Source of the DNA: Cornus controversa
Taxonomy: Eukaryota; Streptophyta; Magnoliopsida; Cornales; Cornaceae
Assembly (NCBI GenBank): GCA_026545225.1
Contig: CM048850.1
Span: 24,788,297 to 24,852,296 of the forward strand
Length of the DNA: 64,000 nt
Direction: 5' to 3'
Shown: in pieces, positions 3,631-60,489 of the stretch
How the letters are laid out: each line of letters begins with the position of its first letter
Position numbering within the stretch: the first letter of the stretch is position 1
Translations under genes and position numbers: made by a program
The notes under the pieces: generated by a model
Database searches by the model: none
Told to the model about the DNA's origin: nothing
Seen by the model: the letters and a program-made list of their open reading frames with translations, nothing else

Positions 3631-3635
3631 ATTTT

Positions 3636-3653
3636 TGGCACCATTGCCGGGGA
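3636..3653 (+). other. Primer binding site, tRNA-Asp type (element A)
   Basis: Lies 5 nt after LTR A1. Sixteen of 18 bases agree with the complement of the plant tRNA-Asp 3' end (TGGCGCCGTTGCCGGGGA); both differences are G-to-A changes. This PBS class is typical of the Athila/Tat branch of plant Ty3/gypsy elements. The tRNA sequence is from general knowledge, not computed here. Confidence 0.85.
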
Positions 3654-3776
3654 CTGCCTATTTCGATTATTTGGATTTTAGAATTAGTTCTAGTTAGATT
3701 TTTAGTTTAGAAATATTTTTTATATTTTGCTTTTAATTATTTCTTTTCCTTTCTTTTCAGGTACTGCAGTCACTAT

Positions 3777-4246
3777 ATGCTCGGTCTCCGTTCTTTGTCT
3801 GATTCATTAATACGTTACGATCCCAAGGTTAAACGTAATCTTAAACAACAGAAGAGTACTACTAACCGCATTGAGCAAGAGGAAGAGAATATTGACACCA
3901 TGGGTGATGAACGAGATAATAATAATAATATTCTTGATACTATTGTGGATAGGGCGCGCTTACTCAGAGATTATTATGTCCCAAAGACATACAATTCGTT
4001 GGCTAGTTTTCAACTGCCAGATGTCACAACACAGAACTACGAGATCAAATCCAGCATCATTCAGATTCTACCATCCTATTTTGGACTGACTCATGAGGAT
4101 CTATACAAGCATCTGGATGACTTTATAGAAGTATGCTCAACTACCAAAATTCACAACTTCTCTGAAGATTCTTTCAGGATGTGACTCTTTCCATTCTCAT
4201 TGAAGAACAAAGCTAAGTATTGGTTCAATTCTCTACACACGGGCTC
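3777..4246 (+). pseudogene. Athila-like Gag, N-terminal part (element A)
   Basis: A frame from 3777 to 4184 contains LLRDYYVPKTYNSLASF, IIQILPSYFGLTHEDLYKHL and DDFIEVCSTTKI, the usual order in Athila-type Gag (retrotransposon gag domain). After a stop at 4182-4184 the next frame carries LFPFSLKNKAKYWFNSL, the conserved continuation, so a small frame change has occurred. The coding sequence is then cut at 4246 by LTR B1 and resumes at 5650. Gag would form the virus-like particle. This copy is dead. Confidence 0.85.
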
Positions 4247-22414: not shown

Positions 22415-22921
22415 TTAGAAATCACTCACCGTTGGTGGAAACCCTCCATGAGCCATAACATCATCCTCCTCGACTAATAGGCTAGCTAAGAAGCACCCAA
22501 TCCTGTCCCAAATACCGAAACTAAGAAATGATGGTATGTAGAAATTATCACCCTCTCCTACAAAATAGAAGCAATCACCTTCGGGTGTGCACACTGTCAC
22601 CCTCCTACGGAGACAATCGATCACGGCTTTAAACATAGACAACCAATCTATACCTAGAATGACATCAACCATGGTCATATCTAGTAACACAAAGTGAAAT
22701 ACTAGCAGACGTCCCATAACCTCGATTTCGCAAGACCGACACACTCTACCCAGGGTAACTCTACCCCCAATAGGCGTATCAATGGACAATGATGACTCTA
22801 GTGATGACACCTCTAGTCCCAAGGCACAAGCAAATGCAGCAGATATGAATGAATGTGATGCACCTAAATCTATCAACACCCTAGCCCACGAGCTAGAAAC
22901 CAAGAAAATACCTCTGACCAT
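22415..22921 (-). pseudogene. Aspartic protease domain, element C
   Basis: One open frame of about 168 residues, between the gag linker and RT. It begins at GIFLVSSSWARVLIDLGASH (active-site region, Asp-Leu-Gly), followed by SFISAAFACALGLEVSSLES, the VILGIDWLSMF region and an acidic linker ending SDF. The equivalent in element E (138-611) is broken, so this is the better-kept copy. It is a domain of a polyprotein that is broken elsewhere, hence called a pseudogene. Confidence 0.88.
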
Positions 22922-23049
22922 TGATGGCCCTAGTACCTCCTCTGCCTGAGCAAGTGTGAAAACATGGCCTTGTGTCTGTTGACCCTACTGGTTAGTCCCC
23001 TGTAATCCTAACTACTGACTAGAAGCAGGCGTAAACCCTCTCACTGCTC

Positions 23050-28663: not shown

Positions 28664-28684
28664 GATAAATAAATAAATAAATAA

Positions 28685-28722
<38 letters not shown>
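28664..28722. repeat. (AAAT)n and (TA)n microsatellite
   Basis: About seven AAAT units run directly into a long (TA)n tract, 0.4 kb downstream of the PME stop codon. Confidence 0.95.
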
Positions 28723-31712: not shown

Positions 31713-31770
31713 TGATAAGCCAAGTCTTTTTCTTGAAACTTAGTATGGCCATAACTAAGGTTTTTGCATG

Positions 31771-35933: not shown

Positions 35934-35938
35934 AACCG
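35934..35938. other. Left target-site duplication of the LARD array
   Basis: AACCG directly before LTR1, identical to 60485-60489. Together they show that the whole 24.5-kb array occupies a single integration site. Confidence 0.92.
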
Positions 35939-37053
35939 TGTCACGCCCCGATTCCCGAGGCCCGGAAACCGAGGTGTGAACCTCGTGAGATCACCTTCAC
36001 GCTCTAACCACCACCTGATCATGCAACCTCAATTTCCTATCATTTTTACGAAAATTGGGCATGACCCACTCTAAATTATCAGCTCCTGGCACGATATACC
36101 TGCTTTACAATTTATATGGACACTTCTGGGCACGTGTCCCCCCCAGCATTTATATCTAAACAATAAAAATGGACACTTCTGGGCCCGTGTCCCCCCAATA
36201 TTTCTACACATGCATAATACAATCATAAATACATGTCTCAGTCCTTGAATGTCCGTATTTAATACATACATCACATGAATAAATACAATTGAAGGGACTG
36301 AATCAATATGAGCCTCTCCATACATTTAATCCAAATGTAACACGTCTATCTATCCAAAATTCTGGACATACATCAGATTCTAAGTAATCTAAACACTACC
36401 TCTGTAACCGGTGCTGTCAGTTTCCCCAACTGACTCCAAAACCAGCAATACCTGCAAAACCTGGGAGGGGGTGAGCTCAAAGGCCCAACAAGGTATGTAG
36501 AACCATACTATCACCGCTGCAGCAGGTCGATCCTCACATATTCTCAAAAATATACATGCACTTAAATATATCACAATATTTAAGACCATGCTCTACCTAT
36601 CATGCATGAATCAACGATTTATATGGCTACTCTAGCACATATGAACATACAAAATTCAGAACACATGATTTTAGAAATCATTTTCAACATGCTTGAAAGT
36701 AGTAAACATCAGGCATCAATATGTATACAGAACATATATGTCAACACATTTACATAACCGATGTAAATCAACTACCACATCTCCTACTCGTCAAGTAGCA
36801 CATCTCAAATGCAATAAAGATGCATTTAAACCATGTAACATGCTCAAAAGCAATAGATATCCAACATATATCATGTTCTGTCACAAACAACGCATATATA
36901 TAAGAATGTGTTAAACACAAAGCATGCTTTACAAAAGATAATGTAAGCAAGTTCACACACTTGTCTCTCTCTCGGACTCAACCCGATACCCTGACATGAT
37001 TCTCAACCAATCATGTGACCGAGACACTTCCCACACAATTTCAGAATCGACAT

Positions 37054-37298
37054 CACTGAGAACATTGGTCCTACCAAGTGATGAGATAATTTCGGAATGC
37101 ACCACTGAGAACATCGGTCCTACCAAGTGATGAGACCATTTTAGAATGCACCACCGAGAACATCGGTCCTACCAGGTGATGAGATAATCTCAACATGCAC
37201 CACCGAGAACATCGGTCCTACCAGGTGATGAGATAATTTCCAAATACACCACCGAGAACATCGGTCCTACCAGGTGATGGGACCACTTCGACACCGTG
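37054..37298. repeat. 49-bp minisatellite with embedded hairpin, five copies
   Basis: Units start at 37054, 37103, 37152, 37201 and 37250, each 49 bp. Each contains ACCGAGAACATCGGT, a 5-bp stem with a 5-nt loop (first two copies ACTGA at the left arm). The same array is in the other LTRs, starting at 43871, 50686 and 57503. Confidence 0.92.
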
Positions 37299-38032
37299 AC
37301 CGAGTAATGACCTACTCTGGGTGACTCAACTACACTTCCCCGTTTTCTCACAACGGCACCATATATGCATTTTGAACATATAATAACCGAACATTCAATG
37401 TTCACGCCTCACAATGCCTAAGCTAGTTAAAAGAACATAACCTGCATTTCATCTCCACATGAACCCACATATAACCACATATGTGTCATTTCCCTCCTAT
37501 ACATGCAATATGGATGCATATACATACAGCATAATACTTTCATACTTCAACTCATGCTTATGAATACTAAAAAGAAGTATTTAGCATACTTTTCATCACA
37601 TTCCAACACACATAGCACATATATGTTCAAAACCTGTATAATACGTCATATATGCCAACAAACTCAACCTAGCACATTTTTATCATGCTAGTATCAATGC
37701 ACACATTCGATATATATAAATAAGCCAGCATGCATCTCATATTCACATTCTCACATATAATCACATATATGTCCAATCCTGCATATAAGTCCTATATGCA
37801 CGTATACTAGCATACATACAGTCATGCTCTCATTTCAATGCATGCATTCATTACAAGTAGCTAACATGCATTCCAATCACAATATACATACACATATATA
37901 TATTACATCACCCACATATGTATCAAGAACATATAAAATGCTTTGCACATTTCATGCTTTTCGAATGCTCGCCAAAAGTTATATTCAACTTAGCATGCAT
38001 TTCTACCACTGCAACCATATATATATATAATC

Positions 38033-38080
<48 letters not shown>

Positions 38081-38439
38081 TGGACACCATGCATAAGAAC
38101 CACATATGCATACAAGACAATATATAGCTAAACATGTATTATTTAGCATGCTCTCCATAGACTTTAATCTATACATACATGCATATCACAATGCAATTAG
38201 GCGATAAATCTAACATGTTATTGCTTCCCAAACCCGCACATACATATATATACACACACACACATATGTATATCCTCTCACATCCCATGTATGTACCACA
38301 TTCCCTATACACATATATATATATAAGCGCCTACATATATATGTATATACACATACCACATATGATTAAATTAATAACATATGTAAATTACTCAACGTAA
38401 ATAAAAAGTACGTAAGAGGTAGAGGCAAGAATCAACTTG

Positions 38440-39720
38440 CCTTAGGTCCCGCTCTCAACCGGTCCGTGCTTGCAAATCGGCCTGTTTCCAAGCCCGATCC
38501 AGTCCTGCGTCGAAATCCACACGAGCAAATCCACTGGACCATCTCGTTTCCTTTTAATTTCCGTGTTCGGCCCAATTAATTTGGCCAAGCCCAAACCTCA
38601 ACCTATTTTCCCATGTCCAAGCCCACCATCTATGAGGGCCCAAAACCACAAGGCCGCCATTCTTGGCCCAACCAACCGCAAACTCTGACCACTACGGGCT
38701 GTCCAAACTGAACCTACAAGTTTCGGCACCATTCGAAACCACCCAAACCAGGCTGTCCAACCTGCCATGAACAGCCTCTTCCTCGGCCTCAAACAACCCA
38801 AACCGAACCCCCCCTTGATCAGTCACAAACAAACTCCATGTGCAACCCACACACGACTCGCTACTTAGCCGAAGCCACTAGCAACCGAATCAAAAGGGAA
38901 CCCACGAACCAAACACCTCAATCAAACCCAAGACCACCGCCGGAAACCACCACCTGCTGCCACAAACCCGACAGCCCAGCACGGCCCGTGCACCAGCCAA
39001 AGCCAAACAGATCCCATCATCAATTCTGGGTACCTTCAACCCGAGGCACCACCATCTGACCTAGCAGGAACCATCACAGCCTCGGCTTCCACCTGAAACT
39101 GACCCAAGCCGAGAACAAAGGAGCCAAAATCGAACCCCATCAACACCCTGGTCGAACCCACACGCGACCCAGTCCGTGGAACCACTCGAAGACCCAGCCA
39201 TTTCCGGCCACCACTCAGCCAAGTCGAACCACCGCCGACCACTACCATGGCCAGAATAGCCACTGTCGTGACCCCCGTTGTCCGATCCAAACCGCTACGG
39301 CCGAGCCAAGCTGAACCCAGCCGAGTTCAACCCCGAGATTGAACCACCTACAGTCACTCCCGGCACCAACTCCACCGGAAACAGCCGAGGAGAACCCACA
39401 AAGAATCGCCTGAAGCTGCGAGCATCCGTCGGACCGTCTTCGCGAACAGCCCAGCCGAACCAAGCACCCCGCGAGCCAGCCGCCACCGTCGTCCAGGCCG
39501 GAGCTCCGCCGTTCGCGGTCGACAGCCATGGCCACCGTCGGCGCCGGATCGGCGGCCCTTCCTTCCCCCGGTCTCTCTCTCTCCTCGGTTTTCTCTCTCC
39601 CCAATTCTCTCTCCTTCTTCTTTTCTTTTCTTTTCTTTTCTTTTTTCCTTTTCTTTCTTTCCTCTTTTCTTCTTTTCTCTTTTCTTCCTCTCTTCAGCCG
39701 AGACCACTAAGGTGGTCTTC
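38440..39720. other. GC-rich island within the LARD LTR
   Basis: Composition changes sharply from the AT-rich LTR to GC-rich text with long overlapping open frames on both strands (for example 39278-39844 plus and 39242-39604 minus), ending in a CT-rich tract. No domain is recognised, the frames overlap antiparallel, and two of them run into TA microsatellites, so I treat it as non-coding LTR sequence. Equivalent islands are in LTR2-4. Confidence 0.55.
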
Positions 39721-41762
39721 CCTTTTGTTTGACCACTCTTGGTCCACACATTATACATATTATATATATATATATATATATATAATATATTACACCATAC
39801 ACAAAATACATGTATTCTATGTATTTCCCCACACTTACCTTTAATCGCACATGAGCCCACCCTATATTTATAATTTAATATAAATATAGGCACTATATAT
39901 ATATATAGATATATATATATACATATACACACACCTTCCACTTGGATGGAAACATAAATGTCCCTACCCTTTCCGGAATTTTAATTAATCCGAAAAAAAA
40001 AATTTTAATCCGGTCAAAGAAATTTTCGGTCCTTACAACCTCCCCTCCTTCAAGGAATTTCGTCCTCGAAATTAGCATAGTCATGGTCTTTCCAAAACCA
40101 ATCCTTACCAGACGTCATTTTCGCCAATGATCGTCACTTTCCCTTTTCACGTACCCTAGGCGCTACACTTGTAACACCTAACTCATAACTCTCAAGTCTT
40201 GCACAATAGTGCATATCGACTCGCTTGTTAGAGTCCACAGTCCCTACCTCAAGACCTATCCAGTCTATCTCTATCTCTAGTCTAAGGCAACACCTTCGAC
40301 TGATCATTCCAATCACTCACCGTGATACATCCCCATAATCCGGGATCATCAATACTCAAAGTCATTGTTTAATTATCAAACATGACTTTCAATCTCTGGC
40401 ATACCATTCCCGGGCTTAGTCCAATATCCTGGGCATCATCACAACACAAACCACATCAATCCAGTGCACATCACAAGCGCACTCACCAGCAAGGCACATG
40501 ACAGTGTACTCGCCGATACAAACCACATAAACAGCGTACTTGCCGCAGCAAGCCACATAATCCTGCCCAGTCTCAAAGACTACAACCCACTGGAATCCAA
40601 TGCCAAGTCCAGGATCTCACATCCCACTGGTTTCACAATCTCATTATTCAAGAGGAGAAGCATTTATCCCCTTTCATCCTTCACACCAAGGAACTAGTTG
40701 ACAATTAGAGAGAATTCCTTTCATATCAGCACTTCACTTTAGACAACCCCTACCAATGAAAGTTTGAGGTCACCTACAGTAGCCAAACAGCAGCCATACA
40801 GTGGCCGCAGCCCACTGCGTCTACACGTCCACTGCGTCCACCTCTCCCCTTCATAGTAAGAAATTATCCTCACTTCAGATACCATATGTCAGGATCCTCG
40901 TCCACTATCAACCCATCCTTCTCTTAACATCATATCCACACTATGATCCAACTACATCTATCATGCGCATATCCCAGCACACCACTAAGGTTAAGGCACA
41001 TAAAGAGTGCACTTGTCAAAAGAAATCATCCAGTCCTGTCCACTTTTGTGGACTACATTCCATTGGCATTTAGCGCCAAAATTAGGGTTTTTCATGCCCT
41101 TAACTTCACAACCTCATTTCTCAAGGAATGAGTCCAATTTACTCACTCGTCCATTACTCCTAACGGACGTTTCCAGCTTCCCGGGTATTTATCCATTCCT
41201 TTCCAGCATCTCATTTGAGACTCCAAGATCCTGACTGCTTCGTCTAGGACCCTACAATTCTTTCCATGTATCACTATTGCACTATTCAGCATCTAGGTAT
41301 TAAGATGCATCATAATGCACATAATCCAAATGTCTTATATTCTTCAGACATCTAAGTCATCACATGTCTACTGACTCTAAGAATTAAATCAATCCTGAGT
41401 CCTCAATCGTTGCGCAATGATTACAACGCAAATCTAAATCACCAAACTCTTGGTTTGGAAAACCACAAGGTAAATCACACCTTCCTCAACAATTCCAGAC
41501 TCATACTTTCAAAGCATATCACTACCTGTCTATTTCAACATCACAGCCCACTCGGTTTCAAACCTCTACCCAGGTTTACCAATTCTCAAAACCAGAACTC
41601 TCTAGGTGACTACATGTCACTACTAACGATGTGACACAAAATGCAACACAAAAATGCAAAGCTTAGTCACATGTATCATATCTACCACATACCACATAAC
41701 ACACAACATGCTAATCAAATAAACACATACCATACATGATATGAAATATGATGCATAAATCA

Positions 41763-41860
41763 AAACCCTAGCCTTCGGGCTAATACTAGGAAAATACCCT
41801 TGACAATACACGGTCCTGGTACCTCCTCTGCCTGAGCAAGCGTGTAAAACACAGCCCAGT
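41763..41860 (-). pseudogene. Gag-protease linker relic in INT1
   Basis: On the minus strand it matches element C from the linker near 22965 into the start of protease near 22860. Shared text includes TGCTCAGGCAGAGGAGGTAC and GGTATTTTC, and GGCTAGGGT lies at the matching distance. It retains only about 100 bp of coding origin. Copies are at 48578-48675 and 55395-55492. It is evidence that the LARD arose by deletion from a Tekay-like element. Confidence 0.75.
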
Positions 41861-42442
41861 CCCCCTAGTATACACACATACTAGAACACAACATCTAGAG
41901 TGGTTCAAACCAACCTACTCTCATCCTCTGTACCCATTGGTAAACACCTACCAATCTATCCACCTCTGTAGTCTAAGGTAGCAACCTTGACTATCAATAC
42001 CAATCACTTTCAGTGACATATCCCTACTAGAGGGAATCTCGTATCCATCGTCATTCGGACGAAACAACTCAACATCCACAAGAGCCAGCGTATTGTAAGA
42101 GGAACGCTAATCCAAGAAAAATGTCTGGCCAGGCCACTTTTCCCAGTTAGCCCAACTCCGGCAATATGCCTTCCTTGTATCCCACCTCAATCTCAATTGC
42201 CAACCCCGGCAAAATACTTACCAACAACACATCATAAGTCCCTAAGTATCTCTAAGGACTTATACACTCGCAATATCCCTTGCGGTATCTCTTCATTGCT
42301 CACTAATGAGACTTAATCACCAAATCCAAAGGTCTAAACTCAACCAACTCTGGGAGTTTTACCAACTCGATTCAATTCTATATCAACACTTTGCTCTTTC
42401 ATTAGGATTGCTCAATCCGAGCAAGTCATTCCACTACCGTAC

Positions 42443-42739
42443 ATAGGTAATCAAACCTATCGTCTAGACAACTATCAACCCTTGCCTATCCCCAAATCCA
42501 CACGTGATTTGACCTTCCGTCCTTAGGTATTCGAACCTACGACTTTGATACCCTAGGTTTTCCAACCTAATGCTTTAACAGCAATATAGAGTTCCTCAAA
42601 TCCATAACTCTATCCAGTCGCCCCTAGGTATTCCAACCTAGTGCTCTCATAGCATTCTGGTATTAGGAACATAATCCAACCTTCTCAACCATACACATGA
42701 TACGTCCATCACCCGTCGTCCCTAGGTATTCTGACCTAG
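42443..42739 (-). repeat. Five PBS-proximal hairpins in INT1
   Basis: Inverted repeats of 18 nt with 6-nt loops at 42443-42460 (ATAGGT/ACCTAT), 42523-42540 (TTAGGT/ACCTAC), 42553-42570 (CTAGGT/ACCTAA), 42624-42641 and 42722-42739 (CTAGGT/ACCTAG). The terminal pair changes while pairing is kept in three of the five; loops resemble ATTCNA. They are repeated in INT2 (offset 6815) and INT3 (offset 13632). Confidence 0.85.
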
Positions 42740-42740
42740 A

Positions 42741-42752
42741 GCTCTGATACCA
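42741..42752 (-). other. Initiator tRNA-Met PBS of LARD unit 1
   Basis: Minus strand TGGTATCAGAGC, a perfect match to the usual initiator-Met PBS, 3 nt after LTR2 in transcription direction. Confidence 0.92.
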
Positions 42753-42755
42753 TTC

Positions 42756-44849
42756 TGTCACGCCCCGATTCCCGAGGCCCGGAAACCGAGGTGTGAACCT
42801 CGTGAGATCACCCTCACGCTCTAACCACCACCTGATCATGCAACCTCAATTTCCTATCATTTTTACGAAAATTGGGCATGACCCACTCTAAATTATCAGC
42901 TCCTGGCACGATATACCTGCTTTACAATTTATATGGACACTTCTGGGCACGTGTCCCCCCCAGCATTTATATCTAAACAATAAAAATGGACACTTCTGGG
43001 CCCGTGTCCCCCCAATATTTCTACACATGCATAATACAATCATAAATACATGTCTCAGTCCTTGAATGTCCGTATTTAATACATACATCACATGAATAAA
43101 TACAATTGAAGGGACTGAATCAATATGAGCCTCTCCATACATTTAATCCAAATGTAACACGTCTATCTATCCAAAATTCTGGACATACATCAGATTCTAA
43201 GTAATCTAAACACTACCTCTGTAACCGGTGCTGTCAGTTTCCCCAACTGACTCCAAAACCAGCAATACCTGCAAAACCTGGGAGGGGGTGAGCTCAAAGG
43301 CCCAACAAGGTATGTAGAACCATACTATCACCGCTGCAGCAGGTCGATCCTCACATATTCTCAAAAATATACATGCACTTAAATATATCACAATATTTAA
43401 GACCATGCTCTACCTATCATGCATGAATCAACGATTTATATGGCTACTCTAGCACATATGAACATACAAAATTCAGAACACATGATTTTAGAAATCATTT
43501 TCAACATGCTTGAAAGTAGTAAACATCAGGCATCAATATGTATACAGAACATATATGTCAACACATTTACATAACCGATGTAAATCAACTACCACATCTC
43601 CTACTCGTCAAGTAGCACATCTCAAATGCAATAAAGATGCATTTAAACCATGTAACATGCTCAAAAGCAATAGATATCCAACATATATCATGTTCTGTCA
43701 CAAACAACGCATATATATAAGAATGTGTTAAACACAAAGCATGCTTTACAAAAGATAATGTAAGCAAGTTCACACACTTGTCTCTCTCTCGGACTCAACC
43801 CGATACCCTGACATGATTCTCAACCAATCATGTGACCGAGACACTTCCCACACAATTTCAGAATCGACATCACTGAGAACATTGGTCCTACCAAGTGATG
43901 AGATAATTTCGGAATGCACCACTGAGAACATCGGTCCTACCAAGTGATGAGACCATTTTAGAATGCACCACCGAGAACATCGGTCCTACCAGGTGATGAG
44001 ATAATCTCAACATGCACCACCGAGAACATCGGTCCTACCAGGTGATGAGATAATTTCCAAATACACCACCGAGAACATCGGTCCTACCAGGTGATGGGAC
44101 CACTTCGACACCGTGACCGAGTAATGACCTACTCTGGGTGACTCAACTACACTTCCCCGTTTTCTCACAACGGCACCATATATGCATTTTGAACATATAA
44201 TAACCGAACATTCAATGTTCACGCCTCACAATGCCTAAGCTAGTTAAAAGAACATAACCTGCATTTCATCTCCACATGAACCCACATATAACCACATATG
44301 TGTCATTTCCCTCCTATACATGCAATATGGATGCATATACATACAGCATAATACTTTCATACTTCAACTCATGCTTATGAATACTAAAAAGAAGTATTTA
44401 GCATACTTTTCATCACATTCCAACACACATAGCACATATATGTTCAAAACCTGTATAATACGTCATATATGCCAACAAACTCAACCTAGCACATTTTTAT
44501 CATGCTAGTATCAATGCACACATTCGATATATATAAATAAGCCAGCATGCATCTCATATTCACATTCTCACATATAATCACATATATGTCCAATCCTGCA
44601 TATAAGTCCTATATGCACGTATACTAGCATACATACAGTCATGCTCTCATTTCAATGCATGCATTCATTACAAGTAGCTAACATGCATTCCAATCACAAT
44701 ATACATACACATATATATATTACATCACCCACATATGTATCAAGAACATATAAAATGCTTTGCACATTTCATGCTTTTCGAATGCTCGCCAAAAGTTATA
44801 TTCAACTTAGCATGCATTTCTACCACTGCAACCATATATATATATAATC

Positions 44850-44895
<46 letters not shown>

Positions 44896-46852
44896 TGGAC
44901 ACCATGCATAAGAACCACATATGCATACAAGACAATATATAGCTAAACATGTATTATTTAGCATGCTCTCCATAGACTTTAATCTATACATACATGCATA
45001 TCACAATGCAATTAGGCGATAAATCTAACATGTTATTGCTTCCCAAACCCGCACATACATATATATACACACACACACATATGTATATCCTCTCACATCC
45101 CATGTATGTACCACATTCCCTATACACATATATATATATAAGCGCCTACATATATATGTATATACACATACCACATATGATTAAATTAATAACATATGTA
45201 AATTACTCAACGTAAATAAAAAGTACGTAAGAGGTAGAGGCAAGAATCAACTTGCCTTAGGTCCCGCTCTCAACCGGTCCGTGCTTGCAAATCGGCCTGT
45301 TTCCAAGCCCGATCCAGTCCTGCGTCGAAATCCACACGAGCAAATCCACTGGACCATCTCGTTTCCTTTTAATTTCCGTGTTCGGCCCAATTAATTTGGC
45401 CAAGCCCAAACCTCAACCTATTTTCCCATGTCCAAGCCCACCATCTATGAGGGCCCAAAACCACAAGGCCGCCATTCTTGGCCCAACCAACCGCAAACTC
45501 TGACCACTACGGGCTGTCCAAACTGAACCTACAAGTTTCGGCACCATTCGAAACCACCCAAACCAGGCTGTCCAACCTGCCATGAACAGCCTCTTCCTCG
45601 GCCTCAAACAACCCAAACCGAACCCCCCCTTGATCAGTCACAAACAAACTCCATGTGCAACCCACACACGACTCGCTACTTAGCCGAAGCCACTAGCAAC
45701 CGAATCAAAAGGGAACCCACGAACCAAACACCTCAATCAAACCCAAGACCACCGCCGGAAACCACCACCTGCTGCCACAAACCCGACAGCCCAGCACGGC
45801 CCGTGCACCAGCCAAAGCCAAACAGATCCCATCATCAATTCTGGGTACCTTCAACCCGAGGCACCACCATCTGACCTAGCAGGAACCATCACAGCCTCGG
45901 CTTCCACCTGAAACTGACCCAAGCCGAGAACAAAGGAGCCAAAATCGAACCCCATCAACACCCTGGTCGAACCCACACGCGACCCAGTCCGTGGAACCAC
46001 TCGAAGACCCAGCCATTTCCGGCCACCACTCAGCCAAGTCGAACCACCGCCGACCACTACCATGGCCAGAATAGCCACTGTCGTGACCCCCGTTGTCCGA
46101 TCCAAACCGCTACGGCCGAGCCAAGCTGAACCCAGCCGAGTTCAACCCCGAGATTGAACCACCTACAGTCACTCCCGGCACCAACTCCACCGGAAACAGC
46201 CGAGGAGAACCCACAAAGAATCGCCTGAAGCTGCGAGCATCCGTCGGACCGTCTTCGCGAACAGCCCAGCCGAACCAAGCACCCCGCGAGCCAGCCGCCA
46301 CCGTCGTCCAGGCCGGAGCTCCGCCGTTCGCGGTCGACAGCCATGGCCACCGTCGGCGCCGGATCGGCGGCCCTTCCTTCCCCCGGTCTCTCTCTCTCCT
46401 CGGTTTTCTCTCTCCCCAATTCTCTCTCCTTCTTCTTTTCTTTTCTTTTCTTTTCTTTTTTCCTTTTCTTTCTTTCCTCTTTTCTTCTTTTCTCTTTTCT
46501 TCCTCTCTTCAGCCGAGACCACTAAGGTGGTCTTCCCTTTTGTTTGACCACTCTTGGTCCACACATTATACATATTATATATATATATATATATATATAA
46601 TATATTACACCATACACAAAATACATGTATTCTATGTATTTCCCCACACTTACCTTTAATCGCACATGAGCCCACCCTATATTTATAATTTAATATAAAT
46701 ATAGGCACTATATATATATATAGATATATATATATACATATACACACACCTTCCACTTGGATGGAAACATAAATGTCCCTACCCTTTCCGGAATTTTAAT
46801 TAATCCGAAAAAAAAAATTTTAATCCGGTCAAAGAAATTTTCGGTCCTTACA
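42756..46852 (-). mobile_element. LARD LTR2
   Basis: 4097 bp, shared between the units on either side: it follows the PPT of INT2 and precedes the PBS of INT1. No private change was noticed relative to LTR4 other than those listed for LTR4. Confidence 0.92.
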
Positions 46853-49570
46853 ACCTCCCCTCCTTCAAGGAATTTCGTCCTCGAAATTAGCATAGTCATG
46901 GTCTTTCCAAAACCAATCCTTACCAGACGTCATTTTCGCCAATGATCGTCACTTTCCCTTTTCACGTACCCTAGGCGCTACACTTGTAACACCTAACTCA
47001 TAACTCTCAAGTCTTGCACAATAGTGCATATCGACTCGCTTGTTAGAGTCCACAGTCCCTACCTCAAGACCTATCCAGTCTATCTCTATCTCTAGTCTAA
47101 GGCAACACCTTCGACTGATCATTCCAATCACTCACCGTGATACATCCCCATAATCCGGGATCATCAATACTCAAAGTCATTGTTTAATTATCAAACATGA
47201 CTTTCAATCTCTGGCATACCATTCCCGGGCTTAGTCCAATATCCTGGGCATCATCACAACACAAACCACATCAATCCAGTGCACATCACAAGCGCACTCA
47301 CCAGCAAGGCACATGACAGTGTACTCGCCGATACAAACCACATAAACAGCGTACTTGCCGCAGCAAGCCACATAATCCTGCCCAGTCTCAAAGACTACAA
47401 CCCACTGGAATCCAATGCCAAGTCCAGGATCTCACATCCCACTGGTTTCACAATCTCATTATTCAAGAGGAGAAGCATTTATCCCCTTTCATCCTTCACA
47501 CCAAGGAACTAGTTGACAATTAGAGAGAATTCCTTTCATATCAGCACTTCACTTTAGACAACCCCTACCAATGAAAGTTTGAGGTCACCTACAGTAGCCA
47601 AACAGCAGCCATACAGTGGCCGCAGCCCACTGCGTCTACACGTCCACTGCGTCCACCTCTCCCCTTCATAGTAAGAAATTATCCTCACTTCAGATACCAT
47701 ATGTCAGGATCCTCGTCCACTATCAACCCATCCTTCTCTTAACATCATATCCACACTATGATCCAACTACATCTATCATGCGCATATCCCAGCACACCAC
47801 TAAGGTTAAGGCACATAAAGAGTGCACTTGTCAAAAGAAATCATCCAGTCCTGTCCACTTTTGTGGACTACATTCCATTGGCATTTAGCGCCAAAATTAG
47901 GGTTTTTCATGCCCTTAACTTCACAACCTCATTTCTCAAGGAATGAGTCCAATTTACTCACTCGTCCATTACTCCTAACGGACGTTTCCAGCTTCCCGGG
48001 TATTTATCCATTCCTTTCCAGCATCTCATTTGAGACTCCAAGATCCTGACTGCTTCGTCTAGGACCCTACAATTCTTTCCATGTATCACTATTGCACTAT
48101 TCAGCATCTAGGTATTAAGATGCATCATAATGCACATAATCCAAATGTCTTATATTCTTCAGACATCTAAGTCATCACATGTCTACTGACTCTAAGAATT
48201 AAATCAATCCTGAGTCCTCAATCGTTGCGCAATGATTACAACGCAAATCTAAATCACCAAACTCTTGGTTTGGAAAACCACAAGGTAAATCACACCTTCC
48301 TCAACAATTCCAGACTCATACTTTCAAAGCATATCACTACCTGTCTATTTCAACATCACAGCCCACTCGGTTTCAAACCTCTACCCAGGTTTACCAATTC
48401 TCAAAACCAGAACTCTCTAGGTGACTACATGTCACTACTAACGATGTGACACAAAATGCAACACAAAAATGCAAAGCTTAGTCACATGTATCATATCTAC
48501 CACATACCACATAACACACAACATGCTAATCAAATAAACACATACCATACATGATATGAAATATGATGCATAAATCAAAACCCTAGCCTTCGGGCTAATA
48601 CTAGGAAAATACCCTTGACAATACACGGTCCTGGTACCTCCTCTGCCTGAGCAAGCGTGTAAAACACAGCCCAGTCCCCCTAGTATACACACATACTAGA
48701 ACACAACATCTAGAGTGGTTCAAACCAACCTACTCTCATCCTCTGTACCCATTGGTAAACACCTACCAATCTATCCACCTCTGTAGTCTAAGGTAGCAAC
48801 CTTGACTATCAATACCAATCACTTTCAGTGACATATCCCTACTAGAGGAAATCTCGTATCCATCGTCATTCGGACGAAACAACTCAACATCCACAAGAGC
48901 CAGCGTATTGTAAGAGGAACGCTAATCCAAGAAAAATGTCTGGCCAGGCCACTTTTCCCAGTTAGCCCAACTCCGGCAATATGCCTTCCTTGTATCCCAC
49001 CTCAATCTCAATTGCCAACCCCGGCAAAATACTTACCAACAACACATCATAAGTCCCTAAGTATCTCTAAGGACTTATACACTCGCAATATCCCTTGCGG
49101 TATCTCTTCATTGCTCACTAATGAGACTTAATCACCAAATCCAAAGGTCTAAACTCAACCAACTCTGGGAGTTTTACCAACTCGATTCAATTCTATATCA
49201 ACACTTTGCTCTTTCATTAGGATTGCTCAATCCGAGCAAGTCATTCCACTACCGTACATAGGTAATCAAACCTATCGTCTAGACAACTATCAACCCTTGC
49301 CTATCCCCAAATCCACACGTGATTTGACCTTCCGTCCTTAGGTATTCGAACCTACGACTTTGATACCCTAGGTTTTCCAACCTAATGCTTTAACAGCAAT
49401 ATAGAGTTCCTCAAATCCATAACTCTATCCAGTCGCCCCTAGGTATTCCAACCTAGTGCTCTCATAGCATTCTGGTATTAGGAACATAATCCAACCTTCT
49501 CAACCATACACATGATACGTCCATCACCCGTCGTCCCTAGGTATTCTGACCTAGAGCTCTGATACCATTC
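46853..49570 (-). mobile_element. LARD internal region INT2
   Basis: 2718 bp, like INT1, with one base change noticed at 48849 (A; G in INT1 and INT3). PPT at 46853-46865, PBS at 49556-49567. Confidence 0.9.
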
Positions 49571-51664
49571 TGTCACGCCCCGATTCCCGAGGCCCGGAAA
49601 CCGAGGTGTGAACCTCGTGAGATCACCCTCACGCTCTAACCACCACCTGATCATGCAACCTCAATTTCCTATCATTTTTACGAAAATTGGGCATGACCCA
49701 CTCTAAATTATCAGCTCCTGGCACGATATACCTGCTTTACAATTTATATGGACACTTCTGGGCACGTGTCCCCCCCAGCATTTATATCTAAACAATAAAA
49801 ATGGACACTTCTGGGCCCGTGTCCCCCCAATATTTCTACACATGCATAATACAATCATAAATACATGTCTCAGTCCTTGAATGTCCGTATTTAATACATA
49901 CATCACATGAATAAATACAATTGAAGGGACTGAATCAATATGAGCCTCTCCATACATTTAATCCAAATGTAACACGTCTATCTATCCAAAATTCTGGACA
50001 TACATCAGATTCTAAGTAATCTAAACACTACCTCTGTAACCGGTGCTGTCAGTTTCCCCAACTGACTCCAAAACCAGCAATACCTGCAAAACCTGGGAGG
50101 GGGTGAGCTCAAAGGCCCAACAAGGTATGTAGAACCATACTATCACCGCTGCAGCAGGTCGATCCTCACATATTCTCAAAAATATACATGCACTTAAATA
50201 TATCACAATATTTAAGACCATGCTCTACCTATCATGCATGAATCAACGATTTATATGGCTACTCTAGCACATATGAACATACAAAATTCAGAACACATGA
50301 TTTTAGAAATCATTTTCAACATGCTTGAAAGTAGTAAACATCAGGCATCAATATGTATACAGAACATATATGTCAACACATTTACATAACCGATGTAAAT
50401 CAACTACCACATCTCCTACTCGTCAAGTAGCACATCTCAAATGCAATAAAGATGCATTTAAACCATGTAACATGCTCAAAAGCAATAGATATCCAACATA
50501 TATCATGTTCTGTCACAAACAACGCATATATATAAGAATGTGTTAAACACAAAGCATGCTTTACAAAAGATAATGTAAGCAAGTTCACACACTTGTCTCT
50601 CTCTCGGACTCAACCCGATACCCTGACATGATTCTCAACCAATCATGTGACCGAGACACTTCCCACACAATTTCAGAATCGACATCACTGAGAACATTGG
50701 TCCTACCAAGTGATGAGATAATTTCGGAATGCACCACTGAGAACATCGGTCCTACCAAGTGATGAGACCATTTTAGAATGCACCACCGAGAACATCGGTC
50801 CTACCAGGTGATGAGATAATCTCAACATGCACCACCGAGAACATCGGTCCTACCAGGTGATGAGATAATTTCCAAATACACCACCGAGAACATCGGTCCT
50901 ACCAGGTGATGGGACCACTTCGACACCGTGACCGAGTAATGACCTACTCTGGGTGACTCAACTACACTTCCCCGTTTTCTCACAACGGCACCATATATGC
51001 ATTTTGAACATATAATAACCGAACATTCAATGTTCACGCCTCACAATGCCTAAGCTAGTTAAAAGAACATAACCTGCATTTCATCTCCACATGAACCCAC
51101 ATATAACCACATATGTGTCATTTCCCTCCTATACATGCAATATGGATGCATATACATACAGCATAATACTTTCATACTTCAACTCATGCTTATGAATACT
51201 AAAAAGAAGTATTTAGCATACTTTTCATCACATTCCAACACACATAGCACATATATGTTCAAAACCTGTATAATACGTCATATATGCCAACAAACTCAAC
51301 CTAGCACATTTTTATCATGCTAGTATCAATGCACACATTCGATATATATAAATAAGCCAGCATGCATCTCATATTCACATTCTCACATATAATCACATAT
51401 ATGTCCAATCCTGCATATAAGTCCTATATGCACGTATACTAGCATACATACAGTCATGCTCTCATTTCAATGCATGCATTCATTACAAGTAGCTAACATG
51501 CATTCCAATCACAATATACATACACATATATATATTACATCACCCACATATGTATCAAGAACATATAAAATGCTTTGCACATTTCATGCTTTTCGAATGC
51601 TCGCCAAAAGTTATATTCAACTTAGCATGCATTTCTACCACTGCAACCATATATATATATAATC

Positions 51665-51710
<46 letters not shown>

Positions 51711-53390
51711 TGGACACCATGCATAAGAACCACATATGCATACAAGACAATATATAGCTAAACATGTATTATTTAGCATGCTCTCCATAGACTTTAATCT
51801 ATACATACATGCATATCACAATGCAATTAGGCGATAAATCTAACATGTTATTGCTTCCCAAACCCGCACATACATATATATACACACACACACATATGTA
51901 TATCCTCTCACATCCCATGTATGTACCACATTCCCTATACACATATATATATATAAGCGCCTACATATATATGTATATACACATACCACATATGATTAAA
52001 TTAATAACATATGTAAATTACTCAACGTAAATAAAAAGTACGTAAGAGGTAGAGGCAAGAATCAACTTGCCTTAGGTCCCGCTCTCAACCGGTCCGTGCT
52101 TGCAAATCGGCCTGTTTCCAAGCCCGATCCAGTCCTGCGTCGAAATCCACACGAGCAAATCCACTGGACCATCTCGTTTCCTTTTAATTTCCGTGTTCGG
52201 CCCAATTAATTTGGCCAAGCCCAAACCTCAACCTATTTTCCCATGTCCAAGCCCACCATCTATGAGGGCCCAAAACCACAAGGCCGCCATTCTTGGCCCA
52301 ACCAACCGCAAACTCTGACCACTACGGGCTGTCCAAACTGAACCTACAAGTTTCGGCACCATTCGAAACCACCCAAACCAGGCTGTCCAACCTGCCATGA
52401 ACAGCCTCTTCCTCGGCCTCAAACAACCCAAACCGAACCCCCCCTTGATCAGTCACAAACAAACTCCATGTGCAACCCACACACGACTCGCTACTTAGCC
52501 GAAGCCACTAGCAACCGAATCAAAAGGGAACCCACGAACCAAACACCTCAATCAAACCCAAGACCACCGCCGGAAACCACCACCTGCTGCCACAAACCCG
52601 ACAGCCCAGCACGGCCCGTGCACCAGCCAAAGCCAAACAGATCCCATCATCAATTCTGGGTACCTTCAACCCGAGGCACCACCATCTGACCTAGCAGGAA
52701 CCATCACAGCCTCGGCTTCCACCTGAAACTGACCCAAGCCGAGAACAAAGGAGCCAAAATCGAACCCCATCAACACCCTGGTCGAACCCACACGCGACCC
52801 AGTCCGTGGAACCACTCGAAGACCCAGCCATTTCCGGCCACCACTCAGCCAAGTCGAACCACCGCCGACCACTACCATGGCCAGAATAGCCACTGTCGTG
52901 ACCCCCGTTGTCCGATCCAAACCGCTACGGCCGAGCCAAGCTGAACCCAGCCGAGTTCAACCCCGAGATTGAACCACCTACAGTCACTCCCGGCACCAAC
53001 TCCACCGGAAACAGCCGAGGAGAACCCACAAAGAATCGCCTGAAGCTGCGAGCATCCGTCGGACCGTCTTCGCGAACAGCCCAGCCGAACCAAGCACCCC
53101 GCGAGCCAGCCGCCACCGTCGTCCAGGCCGGAGCTCCGCCGTTCGCGGTCGACAGCCATGGCCACCGTCGGCGCCGGATCGGCGGCCCTTCCTTCCCCCG
53201 GTCTCTCTCTCTCCTCGGTTTTCTCTCTCCCCAATTCTCTCTCCTTCTTCTTTTCTTTTCTTTTCTTTTCTTTTTTCCTTTTCTTTCTTTCCTCTTTTCT
53301 TCTTTTCTCTTTTCTTCCTCTCTTCAGCCGAGACCACTAAGGTGGTCTTCCCTTTTGTTTGACCACTCTTGGTCCACACATTATACATAT

Positions 53391-53422
<32 letters not shown>

Positions 53423-53669
53423 TACACCATACACAAAATACATGTATTCTATGTATTTCCCCACACTTACCTTTAATCGCACATGAGCCCACCCTATATT
53501 TATAATTTAATATAAATATAGGCACTATATATATATATAGATATATATATATACATATACACACACCTTCCACTTGGATGGAAACATAAATGTCCCTACC
53601 CTTTCCGGAATTTTAATTAATCCGAAAAAAAAAATTTTAATCCGGTCAAAGAAATTTTCGGTCCTTACA
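49571..53669 (-). mobile_element. LARD LTR3
   Basis: 4099 bp. Its extra 2 bp are in the TA tract at 53391-53416 (26 bases; 24 in the others), a different tract from the one expanded in LTR1. That change alters the local long frames, showing they are not under coding constraint. Confidence 0.92.
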
Positions 53670-56387
53670 ACCTCCCCTCCTTCAAGGAATTTCGTCCTCG
53701 AAATTAGCATAGTCATGGTCTTTCCAAAACCAATCCTTACCAGACGTCATTTTCGCCAATGATCGTCACTTTCCCTTTTCACGTACCCTAGGCGCTACAC
53801 TTGTAACACCTAACTCATAACTCTCAAGTCTTGCACAATAGTGCATATCGACTCGCTTGTTAGAGTCCACAGTCCCTACCTCAAGACCTATCCAGTCTAT
53901 CTCTATCTCTAGTCTAAGGCAACACCTTCGACTGATCATTCCAATCACTCACCGTGATACATCCCCATAATCCGGGATCATCAATACTCAAAGTCATTGT
54001 TTAATTATCAAACATGACTTTCAATCTCTGGCATACCATTCCCGGGCTTAGTCCAATATCCTGGGCATCATCACAACACAAACCACATCAATCCAGTGCA
54101 CATCACAAGCGCACTCACCAGCAAGGCACATGACAGTGTACTCGCCGATACAAACCACATAAACAGCGTACTTGCCGCAGCAAGCCACATAATCCTGCCC
54201 AGTCTCAAAGACTACAACCCACTGGAATCCAATGCCAAGTCCAGGATCTCACATCCCACTGGTTTCACAATCTCATTATTCAAGAGGAGAAGCATTTATC
54301 CCCTTTCATCCTTCACACCAAGGAACTAGTTGACAATTAGAGAGAATTCCTTTCATATCAGCACTTCACTTTAGACAACCCCTACCAATGAAAGTTTGAG
54401 GTCACCTACAGTAGCCAAACAGCAGCCATACAGTGGCCGCAGCCCACTGCGTCTACACGTCCACTGCGTCCACCTCTCCCCTTCATAGTAAGAAATTATC
54501 CTCACTTCAGATACCATATGTCAGGATCCTCGTCCACTATCAACCCATCCTTCTCTTAACATCATATCCACACTATGATCCAACTACATCTATCATGCGC
54601 ATATCCCAGCACACCACTAAGGTTAAGGCACATAAAGAGTGCACTTGTCAAAAGAAATCATCCAGTCCTGTCCACTTTTGTGGACTACATTCCATTGGCA
54701 TTTAGCGCCAAAATTAGGGTTTTTCATGCCCTTAACTTCACAACCTCATTTCTCAAGGAATGAGTCCAATTTACTCACTCGTCCATTACTCCTAACGGAC
54801 GTTTCCAGCTTCCCGGGTATTTATCCATTCCTTTCCAGCATCTCATTTGAGACTCCAAGATCCTGACTGCTTCGTCTAGGACCCTACAATTCTTTCCATG
54901 TATCACTATTGCACTATTCAGCATCTAGGTATTAAGATGCATCATAATGCACATAATCCAAATGTCTTATATTCTTCAGACATCTAAGTCATCACATGTC
55001 TACTGACTCTAAGAATTAAATCAATCCTGAGTCCTCAATCGTTGCGCAATGATTACAACGCAAATCTAAATCACCAAACTCTTGGTTTGGAAAACCACAA
55101 GGTAAATCACACCTTCCTCAACAATTCCAGACTCATACTTTCAAAGCATATCACTACCTGTCTATTTCAACATCACAGCCCACTCGGTTTCAAACCTCTA
55201 CCCAGGTTTACCAATTCTCAAAACCAGAACTCTCTAGGTGACTACATGTCACTACTAACGATGTGACACAAAATGCAACACAAAAATGCAAAGCTTAGTC
55301 ACATGTATCATATCTACCACATACCACATAACACACAACATGCTAATCAAATAAACACATACCATACATGATATGAAATATGATGCATAAATCAAAACCC
55401 TAGCCTTCGGGCTAATACTAGGAAAATACCCTTGACAATACACGGTCCTGGTACCTCCTCTGCCTGAGCAAGCGTGTAAAACACAGCCCAGTCCCCCTAG
55501 TATACACACATACTAGAACACAACATCTAGAGTGGTTCAAACCAACCTACTCTCATCCTCTGTACCCATTGGTAAACACCTACCAATCTATCCACCTCTG
55601 TAGTCTAAGGTAGCAACCTTGACTATCAATACCAATCACTTTCAGTGACATATCCCTACTAGAGGGAATCTCGTATCCATCGTCATTCGGACGAAACAAC
55701 TCAACATCCACAAGAGCCAGCGTATTGTAAGAGGAACGCTAATCCAAGAAAAATGTCTGGCCAGGCCACTTTTCCCAGTTAGCCCAACTCCGGCAATATG
55801 CCTTCCTTGTATCCCACCTCAATCTCAATTGCCAACCCCGGCAAAATACTTACCAACAACACATCATAAGTCCCTAAGTATCTCTAAGGACTTATACACT
55901 CGCAATATCCCTTGCGGTATCTCTTCATTGCTCACTAATGAGACTTAATCACCAAATCCAAAGGTCTAAACTCAACCAACTCTGGGAGTTTTACCAACTC
56001 GATTCAATTCTATATCAACACTTTGCTCTTTCATTAGGATTGCTCAATCCGAGCAAGTCATTCCACTACCGTACATAGGTAATCAAACCTATCGTCTAGA
56101 CAACTATCAACCCTTGCCTATCCCCAAATCCACACGTGATTTGACCTTCCGTCCTTAGGTATTCGAACCTACGACTTTGATACCCTAGGTTTTCCAACCT
56201 AATGCTTTAACAGCAATATAGAGTTCCTCAAATCCATAACTCTATCCAGTCGCCCCTAGGTATTCCAACCTAGTGCTCTCATAGCATTCTGGTATTAGGA
56301 ACATAATCCAACCTTCTCAACCATACACATGATACGTCCATCACCCGTCGTCCCTAGGTATTCTGACCTAGAGCTCTGATACCATTC
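53670..56387 (-). mobile_element. LARD internal region INT3
   Basis: 2718 bp, PPT at 53670-53682, PBS at 56373-56384. This is the unit adjacent to the 5'-most LTR. Confidence 0.9.
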
Positions 56388-58481
56388 TGTCACGCCCCGA
56401 TTCCCGAGGCCCGGAAACCGAGGTGTGAACCTCGTGAGATCACCCTCACGCTCTAACCACCACCTGATCATGCAACCTCAATTTCCTATCATTTTTACGA
56501 AAATTGGGCATGACCCACTCTAAATTATCAGCTCCTGGCACGATATACCTGCTTTACAATTTATATGGACACTTCTGGGCACGTGTCCCCCCCAGCATTT
56601 ATATCTAAACAATAAAAATGGACACTTCTGGGCCCGTGTCCCCCCAATATTTCTACACATGCATAATACAATCATAAATACATGTCTCAGTCCTTGAATG
56701 TCCGTATTTAATACATACATCACATGAATAAATACAATTGAAGGGACTGAATCAATATGAGCCTCTCCATACATTTAATCCAAATGTAACACGTCTATCT
56801 ATCCAAAATTCTGGACATACATCAGATTCTAAGTAATCTAAACACTACCTCTGTAACCGGTGCTGTCAGTTTCCCCAACTGACTCCAAAACCAGCAATAC
56901 CTGCAAAACCTGGGAGGGGGTGAGCTCAAAGGCCCAACAAGGTATGTAGAACCATACTATCACCGCTGCAGCAGGTCGATCCTCACATATTCTCAAAAAT
57001 ATACATGCACTTAAATATATCACAATATTTAAGACCATGCTCTACCTATCATGCATGAATCAACGATTTATATGGCTACTCTAGCACATATGAACATACA
57101 AAATTCAGAACACATGATTTTAGAAATCATTTTCAACATGCTTGAAAGTAGTAAACATCAGGCATCAATATGTATACAGAACATATATGTCAACACATTT
57201 ACATAACCGATGTAAATCAACTACCACATCTCCTACTCGTCAAGTAGCACATCTCAAATGCAATAAAGATGCATTTAAACCATGTAACATGCTCAAAAGC
57301 AATAGATATCCAACATATATCATGTTCTGTCACAAACAACGCATATATATAAGAATGTGTTAAACACAAAGCATGCTTTACAAAAGATAATGTAAGCAAG
57401 TTCACACACTTGTCTCTCTCTCGGACTCAACCCGATACCCTGACATGATTCTCAACCAATCATGTGACCGAGACACTTCCCACACAATTTCAGAATCGAC
57501 ATCACTGAGAACATTGGTCCTACCAAGTGATGAGATAATTTCGGAATGCACCACTGAGAACATCGGTCCTACCAAGTGATGAGACCATTTTAGAATGCAC
57601 CACCGAGAACATCGGTCCTACCAGGTGATGAGATAATCTCAACATGCACCACCGAGAACATCGGTCCTACCAGGTGATGAGATAATTTCCAAATACACCA
57701 CCGAGAACATCGGTCCTACCAGGTGATGGGACCACTTCGACACCGTGACCGAGTAATGACCTACTCTGGGTGACTCAACTACACTTCCCCGTTTTCTCAC
57801 AACGGCACCATATATGCATTTTGAATATATAATAACCGAACATTCAATGTTCACGCCTCACAATGCCTAAGCTAGTTAAAAGAACATAACCTGCATTTCA
57901 TCTCCACATGAACCCACATATAACCACATATGTGTCATTTCCCTCCTATACATGCAATATGGATGCATATACATACAGCATAATACTTTCATACTTCAAC
58001 TCATGCTTATGAATACTAAAAAGAAGTATTTAGCATACTTTTCATCACATTCCAACACACATAGCACATATATGTTCAAAACCTGTATAATACGTCATAT
58101 ATGCCAACAAACTCAACCTAGCACATTTTTATCATGCTAGTATCAATGCACACATTCGATATATATAAATAAGCCAGCATGCATCTCATATTCACATTCT
58201 CACATATAATCACATATATGTCCAATCCTGCATATAAGTCCTATATGCACGTATACTAGCATACATACAGTCATGCTCTCATTTCAATGCATGCATTCAT
58301 TACAAGTAGCTAACATGCATTCCAATCACAATATACATACACATATATATATTACATCACCCACATATGTATCAAGAACATATAAAATGCTTTGCACATT
58401 TCATGCTTTTCGAATGCTCGCCAAAAGTTATATTCAACTTAGCATGCATTTCTACCACTGCAACCATATATATATATAATC

Positions 58482-58527
<46 letters not shown>

Positions 58528-60484
58528 TGGACACCATGCATAAGAACCACATATGCATACAAGACAATATATAGCTAAACATGTATTATTTAGCATGCTC
58601 TCCATAGACTTTAATCTATACATACATGCATATCACAATGCAATTAGGCGATAAATCTAACATGTTATTGCTTCCCAAACCCGCACATACATATATATAC
58701 ACACACACACATATGTATATCCTCTCACATCCCATGTATGTACCACATTCCCTATACACATATATATATATAAGCGCCTACATATATATGTATATACACA
58801 TACCACATATGATTAAATTAATAACATATGTAAATTACTCAACGTAAATAAAAAGTACGTAAGAGGTAGAGGCAAGAATCAACTTGCCTTAGGTCCCGCT
58901 CTCAACCGGTCCGTGCTTGCAAATCGGCCTGTTTCCAAGCCCGATCCAGTCCTGCGTCGAAATCCACACGAGCAAATCCACTGGACCATCTCGTTTCCTT
59001 TTAATTTCCGTGTTCGGCCCAATTAATTTGGCCAAGCCCAAACCTCAACCTATTTTCCCATGTCCAAGCCCACCATCTATGAGGGCCCAAAACCACAAGG
59101 CCGCCATTCTTGGCCCAACCAACCGCAAACTCTGACCACTACGGGCTGTCCAAACTGAACCTACAAGTTTCGGCACCATTCGAAACCACCCAAACCAGGC
59201 TGTCCAACCTGCCATGAACAGCCTCTTCCTCGGCCTCAAACAACCCAAACCGAACCCCCCCTTGATCAGTCACAAACAAACTCCATGTGCAACCCACACA
59301 CGACTCGCTACTTAGCCGAAGCCACTAGCAACCGAATCAAAAGGGAACCCACGAACCAAACACCTCAATCAAACCCAAGACCACCGCCGGAAACCACCAC
59401 CTGCTGCCACAAACCCGACAGCCCAGCACGGCCCGTGCACCAGCCAAAGCCAAACAGATCCCATCATCAATTCTGGGTACCTTCAACCCGAGGCACCACC
59501 ATCTGACCTAGCAGGAACCATCACAGCCTCGGCTTCCACCTGAAACTGACCCAAGCCGAGAACAAAGGAGCCAAAATCGAACCCCATCAACACCCTGGTC
59601 GAACCCACACGCGACCCAGTCCGTGGAACCACTCGAAGACCCAGCCATTTCCGGCCACCACTCAGCCAAGTCGAACCACCGCCGACCACTACCATGGCCA
59701 GAATAGCCACTGTCGTGACCCCCGTTGTCCGATCCAAACCGCTACGGCCGAGCCAAGCTGAACCCAGCCGAGTTCAACCCCGAGATTGAACCACCTACAG
59801 TCACTCCCGGCACCAACTCCACCGGAAACAGCCGAGGAGAACCCACAAAGAATCGCCTGAAGCTGCGAGCATCCGTCGGACCGTCTTCGCGAACAGCCCA
59901 GCCGAACCAAGCACCCCGCGAGCCAGCCGCCACCGTCGTCCAGGCCGGAGCTCCGCCGTTCGCGGTCGACAGCCATGGCCACCGTCGGCGCCGGATCGGC
60001 GGCCCTTCCTTCCCCCGGTCTCTCTCTCTCCTCGGTTTTCTCTCTCCCCAATTCTCTCTCCTTCTTCTTTTCTTTTCTTTTCTTTTCTTTTTTCCTTTTC
60101 TTTCTTTCCTCTTTTCTTCTTTTCTCTTTTCTTCCTCTCTTCAGCCGAGACCACTAAGGTGGTCTTCCCTTTTGTTTGACCACTCTTGGTCCACACATTA
60201 TACATATTATATATATATATATATATATATAATATATTACACCATACACAAAATACATGTATTCTATGTATTTCCCCACACTTACCTTTAATCGCACATG
60301 AGCCCACCCTATATTTATAATTTAATATAAATATAGGCACTATATATATATATAGATATATATATATACATATACACACACCTTCCACTTGGATGGAAAC
60401 ATAAATGTCCCTACCCTTTCCGGAATTTTAATTAATCCGAAAAAAAAAATTTTAATCCGGTCAAAGAAATTTTCGGTCCTTACA
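56388..60484 (-). mobile_element. LARD LTR4 (outermost 5' LTR)
   Basis: 4097 bp with a private T at 57826 (C elsewhere). Its outer end TGTAAGG (read from 60484) abuts the right AACCG duplication and, unlike LTR1-3, has no PPT beside it. This marks it as the true 5' LTR of the insertion. Confidence 0.92.
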
Positions 60485-60489
60485 AACCG
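60485..60489. other. Right target-site duplication of the LARD array
   Basis: AACCG, identical to 35934-35938. The interior of the outer element resumes directly after it. Confidence 0.92.

Follow-up and report, generated by a model that had tools for sequence, protein, structure and literature searches.

The locus examined here raises the question of how a long terminal repeat (LTR) retrotransposon comes to stand in three head-to-tail units inside a single insertion site. It lies in a 64,000-nucleotide stretch of the Cornus controversa genome (C6:24788297-24852296 of 771.7 Mb; contig CM048850.1), which we call the window and whose positions are used for the window array below, and it consists of a tandem array of a long element that resembles the large retrotransposon derivatives (LARDs). 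The initial annotation had posed two possible origins, expansion after insertion or insertion of a concatemer. This choice proved to be the right framing, and expansion is favoured by the mosaic make-up of inner LTRs in sister arrays elsewhere in the genome. Our analysis suggests, with a probability of roughly three in four (0.77), that the window array is a single inserted element lengthened by at least two misaligned LTR-LTR exchanges.

The array spans positions 35939-60484 and comprises four LTRs and three interiors of 2718 bp, arranged head to tail (Table 1). Self-comparison reproduced to the base the coordinates, the LTR and interior lengths and the outer-only AACCG that had been proposed for it. 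AACCG stands on both outer sides and is absent from all six inner joints, and the primer-binding site (PBS) and polypurine tract (PPT) are intact beside every shared LTR. Independent or nested insertions were therefore rejected for the window array. The claims that adjacent units share their LTRs and, from the single outer AACCG, that one insertion lies behind the array were both confirmed.

The array matches itself over 17.7 kb at 99.94% identity, far above chance. Five differences were found in the whole of it, three substitutions and two 2-bp microsatellite steps, each private to one copy. Those of LTR1 are a C to T at 35996 and a step in an AT/TA microsatellite at 38039; the private step of LTR3 is likewise in an AT/TA microsatellite, and the positions of the others are given in Table 1. 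The outer LTRs show 2 differences in 4097 sites. With the grass rate of 1.3e-8 per site per year (PMC1560396), which is not calibrated in this plant, this corresponds to about 19,000 years, and the estimate has a wide error because it is based on two sites. Reading the mechanism from the window array alone was given up, as there are just two outer-LTR substitutions; the array is too young to carry a signature, and the mechanism proposed for it is drawn from its sisters.

Near-identical repeat units of 6.8 kb could also be produced by faulty assembly, and the array is known from assembled sequence. We consider it very improbable that the extra units are such an artefact, as private variants are present in LTR1, interior 2, LTR3 and LTR4, and seven further loci show the same structure with other sequences and other flanks.

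These loci were found by using the first 1001 bp of interior 1 as a query and scoring the best 40 of 1636 candidates. Nineteen of the best 40 matches fell into seven clusters, the window's included, with a spacing of about one unit. The remaining six clusters, read as sequence, were all shared-LTR arrays (6/6): those designated C6 and C3a contain four interiors each, and C3b, C9, C8 and C1 contain two each. For the other 21 matches the left flank alone was read. This revealed an eighth array, C1b at C1:43217082, where an interior adjoins another interior, while 17 of the 21 had no interior left of the LTR (13 start in unrelated sequence and four, L041, L050, L051 and a C2 copy, after a PBS-like head), and L036, L040 and L047 were not assigned either way. 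A single outer 5-bp duplication was found in seven of the eight arrays (window AACCG, C6 AGAGT, C3a AAGTC, C3b TTATA, C9 TGAAT, C1 ATATG, C1b CGAAG). In the remaining one, C8, one end is truncated.

Genome-wide, the PPT/LTR junction pattern gave 947 matches at up to 3 mismatches, and the reversed control gave 0. Runs of junctions were counted among 100 listed matches of the 947, all of them free of mismatches and located on C1, C2 and part of C3. These matches contained nine same-strand runs in which the step measured 6.2-6.95 kb; seven runs had two interiors and two had three, and together they include 20 of the 100 interiors and 9 of the 89 loci. Eleven such steps were observed, whereas 5000 random shifts gave 0.8 on average and never more than 5. 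Of these runs, C1:42370568 is the only one for which the sequence was read as well, and the remaining eight are known by spacing. A uniform three-unit array had been regarded as unusual, and this did not hold, since two-unit and four-unit arrays of the family are known by sequence and runs of two and three by spacing.

C8 has an LTR head (L022-L023, L028-L029) with two near-copies of about 107 bp, each ending in the PBS-like stretch GCTCTGATACCA before the usual head; a similar stretch precedes the LTR head in the four copies with a PBS-like head named above. Its last LTR ends at 2661 of 3486 bp and the aligned remainder is 100% identical, which points to a very young array with a truncated end. 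With one LTR so cut and units identical over 8655 bp, C8 was excluded from the polarity test.

The logic of this test is as follows. If an element A-I-B underwent a crossover of B with A, the inner LTR would descend from B on the left and from A on the right. Private substitutions should then lie on the left in the first LTR and on the right in the last. No polarity is expected in a concatemer whose units merely mutate. In six arrays (window, C6, C3a, C3b, C9 and C1), the first LTR had 29 private sites on the left and 5 on the right, and the last LTR had 6 and 22 (Fisher 3.9e-7). None of 100000 label permutations was as extreme, and p was at most 5.8e-5 upon leaving out any one array. With C1b added, the seven arrays gave 67 sites, 31 left and 5 right for the first LTR and 6 and 25 for the last (Fisher 2.9e-8). 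C1b was discovered after the hypothesis had been formed, and the prediction held at 4/4 of its sites (an adjoining pair taken as one): the first-private sites are at 531 and 577, and the last-private ones at 2831 and in the adjoining pair near 3002. The mean position of first-private sites lay left of that of last-private sites in 7/7 arrays, four of which have no more than six sites.

When one breakpoint was allowed per array, forward polarity fitted 59 of 66 sites (the adjoining pair counted once) and reversed polarity fitted 45; with permuted labels, 48 sites fitted on average and 58 at most (p < 5e-5). The best breakpoints are scattered (C1 423-1346, C6 880-1913, C3b 2094-3997). Taken singly, only C3a (p 0.012) and C1 (0.015) passed the 5% level. 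The pooled substitutions thus show the inner LTRs of the older sister arrays to be mosaics, which go with the last LTR on the left and with the first LTR on the right. By analogy, the window array would have formed like these older sisters, being itself too young for the mosaic signature.

With other family members as the outgroup, all but 13 of the 67 sites could be polarised. Of the derived bases common to the inner and last LTR, 9 lie left and 1 lies right; for the inner and first LTR the corresponding numbers are 0 and 2. Shared derived bases of this kind indicate common descent rather than independent mutation of identical units. The interiors were compared with the outer-LTR split in C1, C3b, C9, C3a and C6, by the I1-I4 pair alone in C6 and C3a. 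They were younger than this split in C1 (1/2641 vs 14/4096, p = 0.006) and C3b (2/2675 vs 13/4246, p = 0.034).

These results bear on the insertion of a ready-made concatemer, arising from the copying of a read-through or tandem transcript or from template switching during reverse transcription, whereby all units would be equally old at the locus. Such an origin has been discussed in PMC11899658 and PMC7215508, and it likewise predicts near-identical window units within one duplication. We consider it unlikely. It predicts no polarity of private substitutions, whereas the pooled arrays are strongly polar, and under it no interior should be younger than the insertion, whereas those of C1 and C3b are younger than the outer-LTR split. 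Moreover, a reverse-transcribed array should have outer LTRs that are most alike, but those of C3a differ at 28 sites while its LTR3 and LTR4 differ by 0 substitutions.

C3a also carries information on the order of growth. Over 2478 sites, its interiors I3 and I4 differ by 1, I2 differs from I3 and I4 by 5 to 6, with 5 for the I2-I4 pair, and I1 differs from the others by 10 to 12, with 11 for the I1-I4 pair. Because the differences are graded in this manner and no substitution separates LTR3 from LTR4, the addition of units was probably spread over time. The three inner LTRs of C3a share three derived bases found in neither outer LTR, as expected from re-copying of one inner LTR. At LTR positions 2264-2270 of the same array, a 2-bp microsatellite gains one step from each LTR to the next, from the first to the last. 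A cluster of bases private to LTR2 lies at its positions 593-1292, where 593 and 650 have the outgroup base; this looks like gene conversion from another copy.

Several observations weigh against growth by exchange. Single-array p values were 0.065 for C6, 0.106 for C3b, 0.16 for C1b and 0.50 for both C9 and the window, the last having one first-private and one last-private substitution and thus providing no test of the mechanism. Seven of the 66 sites did not fit (4 in C3a, 2 in C3b and 1 in C1). Neighbouring substitutions may be non-independent, and the pooled p is optimistic because neighbouring sites were treated as independent. Shared derived bases on the right are just 2, fewer than the 20 private derived bases on the left would suggest. 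The divergence of interiors versus outer LTRs was not significant in C9 (p 0.87), C3a (0.18) or C6 (0.066). At site 3698 of C3b, the outer LTRs share a derived base while the inner LTR has the outgroup base; a reverse-transcribed array or conversion would leave such a pattern, and it speaks for insertion of a concatemer.

In addition, the same polarity and low interior divergence are predicted if a concatemer was inserted and gene conversion between units then homogenised all but the two outer edges, mimicking a mosaic. The LTR2 cluster of C3a, which differs from its four sister LTRs, suggests that conversion from elsewhere may occur. We regard this origin as quite unlikely too, since escape at the edges should be roughly symmetric, whereas the best breakpoints of C1 and C3b differ as given above, and two processes are required instead of one.

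Under the preferred reading, lengthening by misaligned exchange, a single element would have inserted and produced one AACCG duplication. The last LTR on one chromatid would then cross over with the first LTR on the sister or the homologue, and the joint would form an inner LTR with its left part from the last LTR and its right part from the first. At least two such exchanges would result in three interiors and four LTRs inside the original duplication. The same joint would be expected from reciprocal unequal crossover, from break-induced replication, or from re-insertion of a one-LTR circle at the locus by homologous recombination. The chances seem even to us that host recombination, alongside transposition, is a large source of copies in this family, with about one interior in five standing in an array grown in place, and that the inner LTRs are all datable crossover joints. 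If so, a single genome assembly would document past unequal exchanges together with their breakpoints.

A survey covering rice, Arabidopsis, almond and cotton (Morales-Diaz et al. 2025, PMC11899658) reports that tandem LTR-retrotransposons are common in plants and polymorphic, which likewise contradicts the supposed rarity of such arrays. That report leaves undecided whether tandems were inserted as arrays or arose by recombination. Its tandems resemble the window array in their interiors alternating with shared LTRs, in the single target-site duplication of the loci analysed in detail, and in being mostly recent; those of rice are mostly gypsy, with Tekay enriched. They differ in that both of the rice loci treated in detail contain two units instead of three, and in that the 28 selected tandems encode retrotransposon domains whereas the window element has no detected coding domain. 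A further difference is the directional mosaic in the pooled older arrays of our element's family, as against the undecided mechanism there.

Arrays of the Cassandra terminal-repeat retrotransposon in miniature (TRIM) are also built of a non-coding element with alternating LTRs and interiors, and have many units (PMC7215508). Cassandra is, however, a miniature element with 5S sequences in its short LTRs, whereas the LTRs of the window element are 4.1 kb long and no Rfam family scored above its threshold in the window. In Wukong, a TRIM of maize, between three and seven LTRs were counted in 15 of 89 intact elements, and unequal crossing over was proposed; its LTRs are 230 bp long and the mechanism was inferred from the arrangement, according to the part of PMC4528315 at hand. 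By description, the window element is also similar to Sukkula and other LARDs (PMC7215508 names Sukkula) in being large with a non-coding interior. Tandem LTR structure is thus already known in plants, and the new part is the evidence on mechanism from a readable joint history. An earlier mosaic test of tandem LTR arrays was not recognised among the titles and abstract openings of partial literature listings, from which no absence is claimed. Tandem LTR elements are highly polymorphic plant loci, and reading private substitutions by LTR half separates simple forms of insertion as an array and growth in place at intermediate age. Such a reading requires just one good assembly and is applicable to the published rice set.

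As regards its identity, the element lies on the minus strand, which the initial annotation had not stated, and LTR1 is therefore its 3′ LTR. Read on that strand, the LTR end ...GGGGCGTGACA is followed by 3 bases and then by the PBS TGGTATCAGAGC, which we take to be the usual plant initiator tRNA-Met primer-binding motif; the PPT GAAGGAGGGGAGGT stands before the TGTAAGG of the other LTR. Direct LTRs with TG...CA ends, a 5-bp target-site duplication, a PBS and a PPT mark it as an LTR retrotransposon, the long LTRs and the interior without detected gag or pol as a LARD, and the alternation of two or more interiors with shared LTRs within a single target-site duplication as a tandem LTR-retrotransposon. 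No Pfam family, gag and pol domains included, reached its curated cut-off in the 13 open reading frames (ORFs) scanned, 3 from LTR1/interior 1 and 10 of the 48 of at least 60 aa from interior 1/LTR2, and decayed coding remnants are possible elsewhere. One sub-threshold match was obtained among the 10 ORFs from interior 1/LTR2 (RDD, E 0.047). Since the longest interior minus-strand ORF has 85 aa and the scanned ORFs are without gag and pol, the element is taken as non-autonomous and LARD-like, in agreement with the initial annotation.

No Rfam family was found at the gathering score within the window, and with an LTR of 4.1 kb the element does not have the 5S rRNA domain in a short LTR that defines a Cassandra TRIM. 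Membership of Del/Tekay is decided by reverse transcriptase/integrase phylogeny together with the chromodomain. The U5 end of the element carries GGG at −8 to −10, as do Del (Tekay) type A elements in PMC4029996. Its U3 end TGTAAGGACC, in contrast, has 3 mismatches in 10 bases to TGTAACACCC, the motif common in Del elements of maize and sorghum, and one of the three mismatches (position 6) is among the best-conserved positions of that motif (PMC4029996). The link to Del/Tekay is a resemblance of LTR ends and no classification.

Table 1. Features of the tandem array, in window positions.
Feature	Position	Strand	Remarks
Left target-site duplication AACCG	35934-35938		
LTR1, 4099 bp	35939-40037	-	Element's 3′ LTR
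Minisatellite, 49 bp, 4.9 copies	37037-37279		Within LTR1; found in all four LTRs
Interior 1, 2718 bp	40038-42755	-	gag/pol not detected; longest minus-strand ORF 85 aa
PPT adjoining LTR1	40038-40051	-	Repeats at 46853-46866 and 53670-53683
PBS TGGTATCAGAGC	42741-42752	-	Repeats at 49556-49567 and 56373-56384; tRNA match presumed
LTR2, 4097 bp	42756-46852	-	Common to units 1 and 2
Interior 2, 2718 bp	46853-49570	-	Private G to A at 48849
LTR3, 4099 bp	49571-53669	-	Common to units 2 and 3; private 2-bp microsatellite step at 53391
Interior 3, 2718 bp	53670-56387	-	
LTR4, 4097 bp	56388-60484	-	Element's 5′ LTR; private C to T at 57826
Right target-site duplication AACCG	60485-60489		

Outside the array, a 60-bp match of window 28665-28722 to the LTRs was discarded, as it falls within the AT repeat of the LTR. 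A pectinesterase gene with an inhibitor domain was identified at 29122-31739 on the minus strand, with two exon-like ORFs; its best named relatives are from Salvia, Dorcoceras, Camellia and Rehmannia. Because the array lies 4.2 kb upstream of this gene on the same strand, an LTR promoter could read towards it. Coding retroelement fragments with reverse transcriptase and a retroviral-type protease are present at 932-1534 (plus strand) and 22415-22984 (minus strand), and they are surrounded by direct and inverted repeats from 2785 to 26608.

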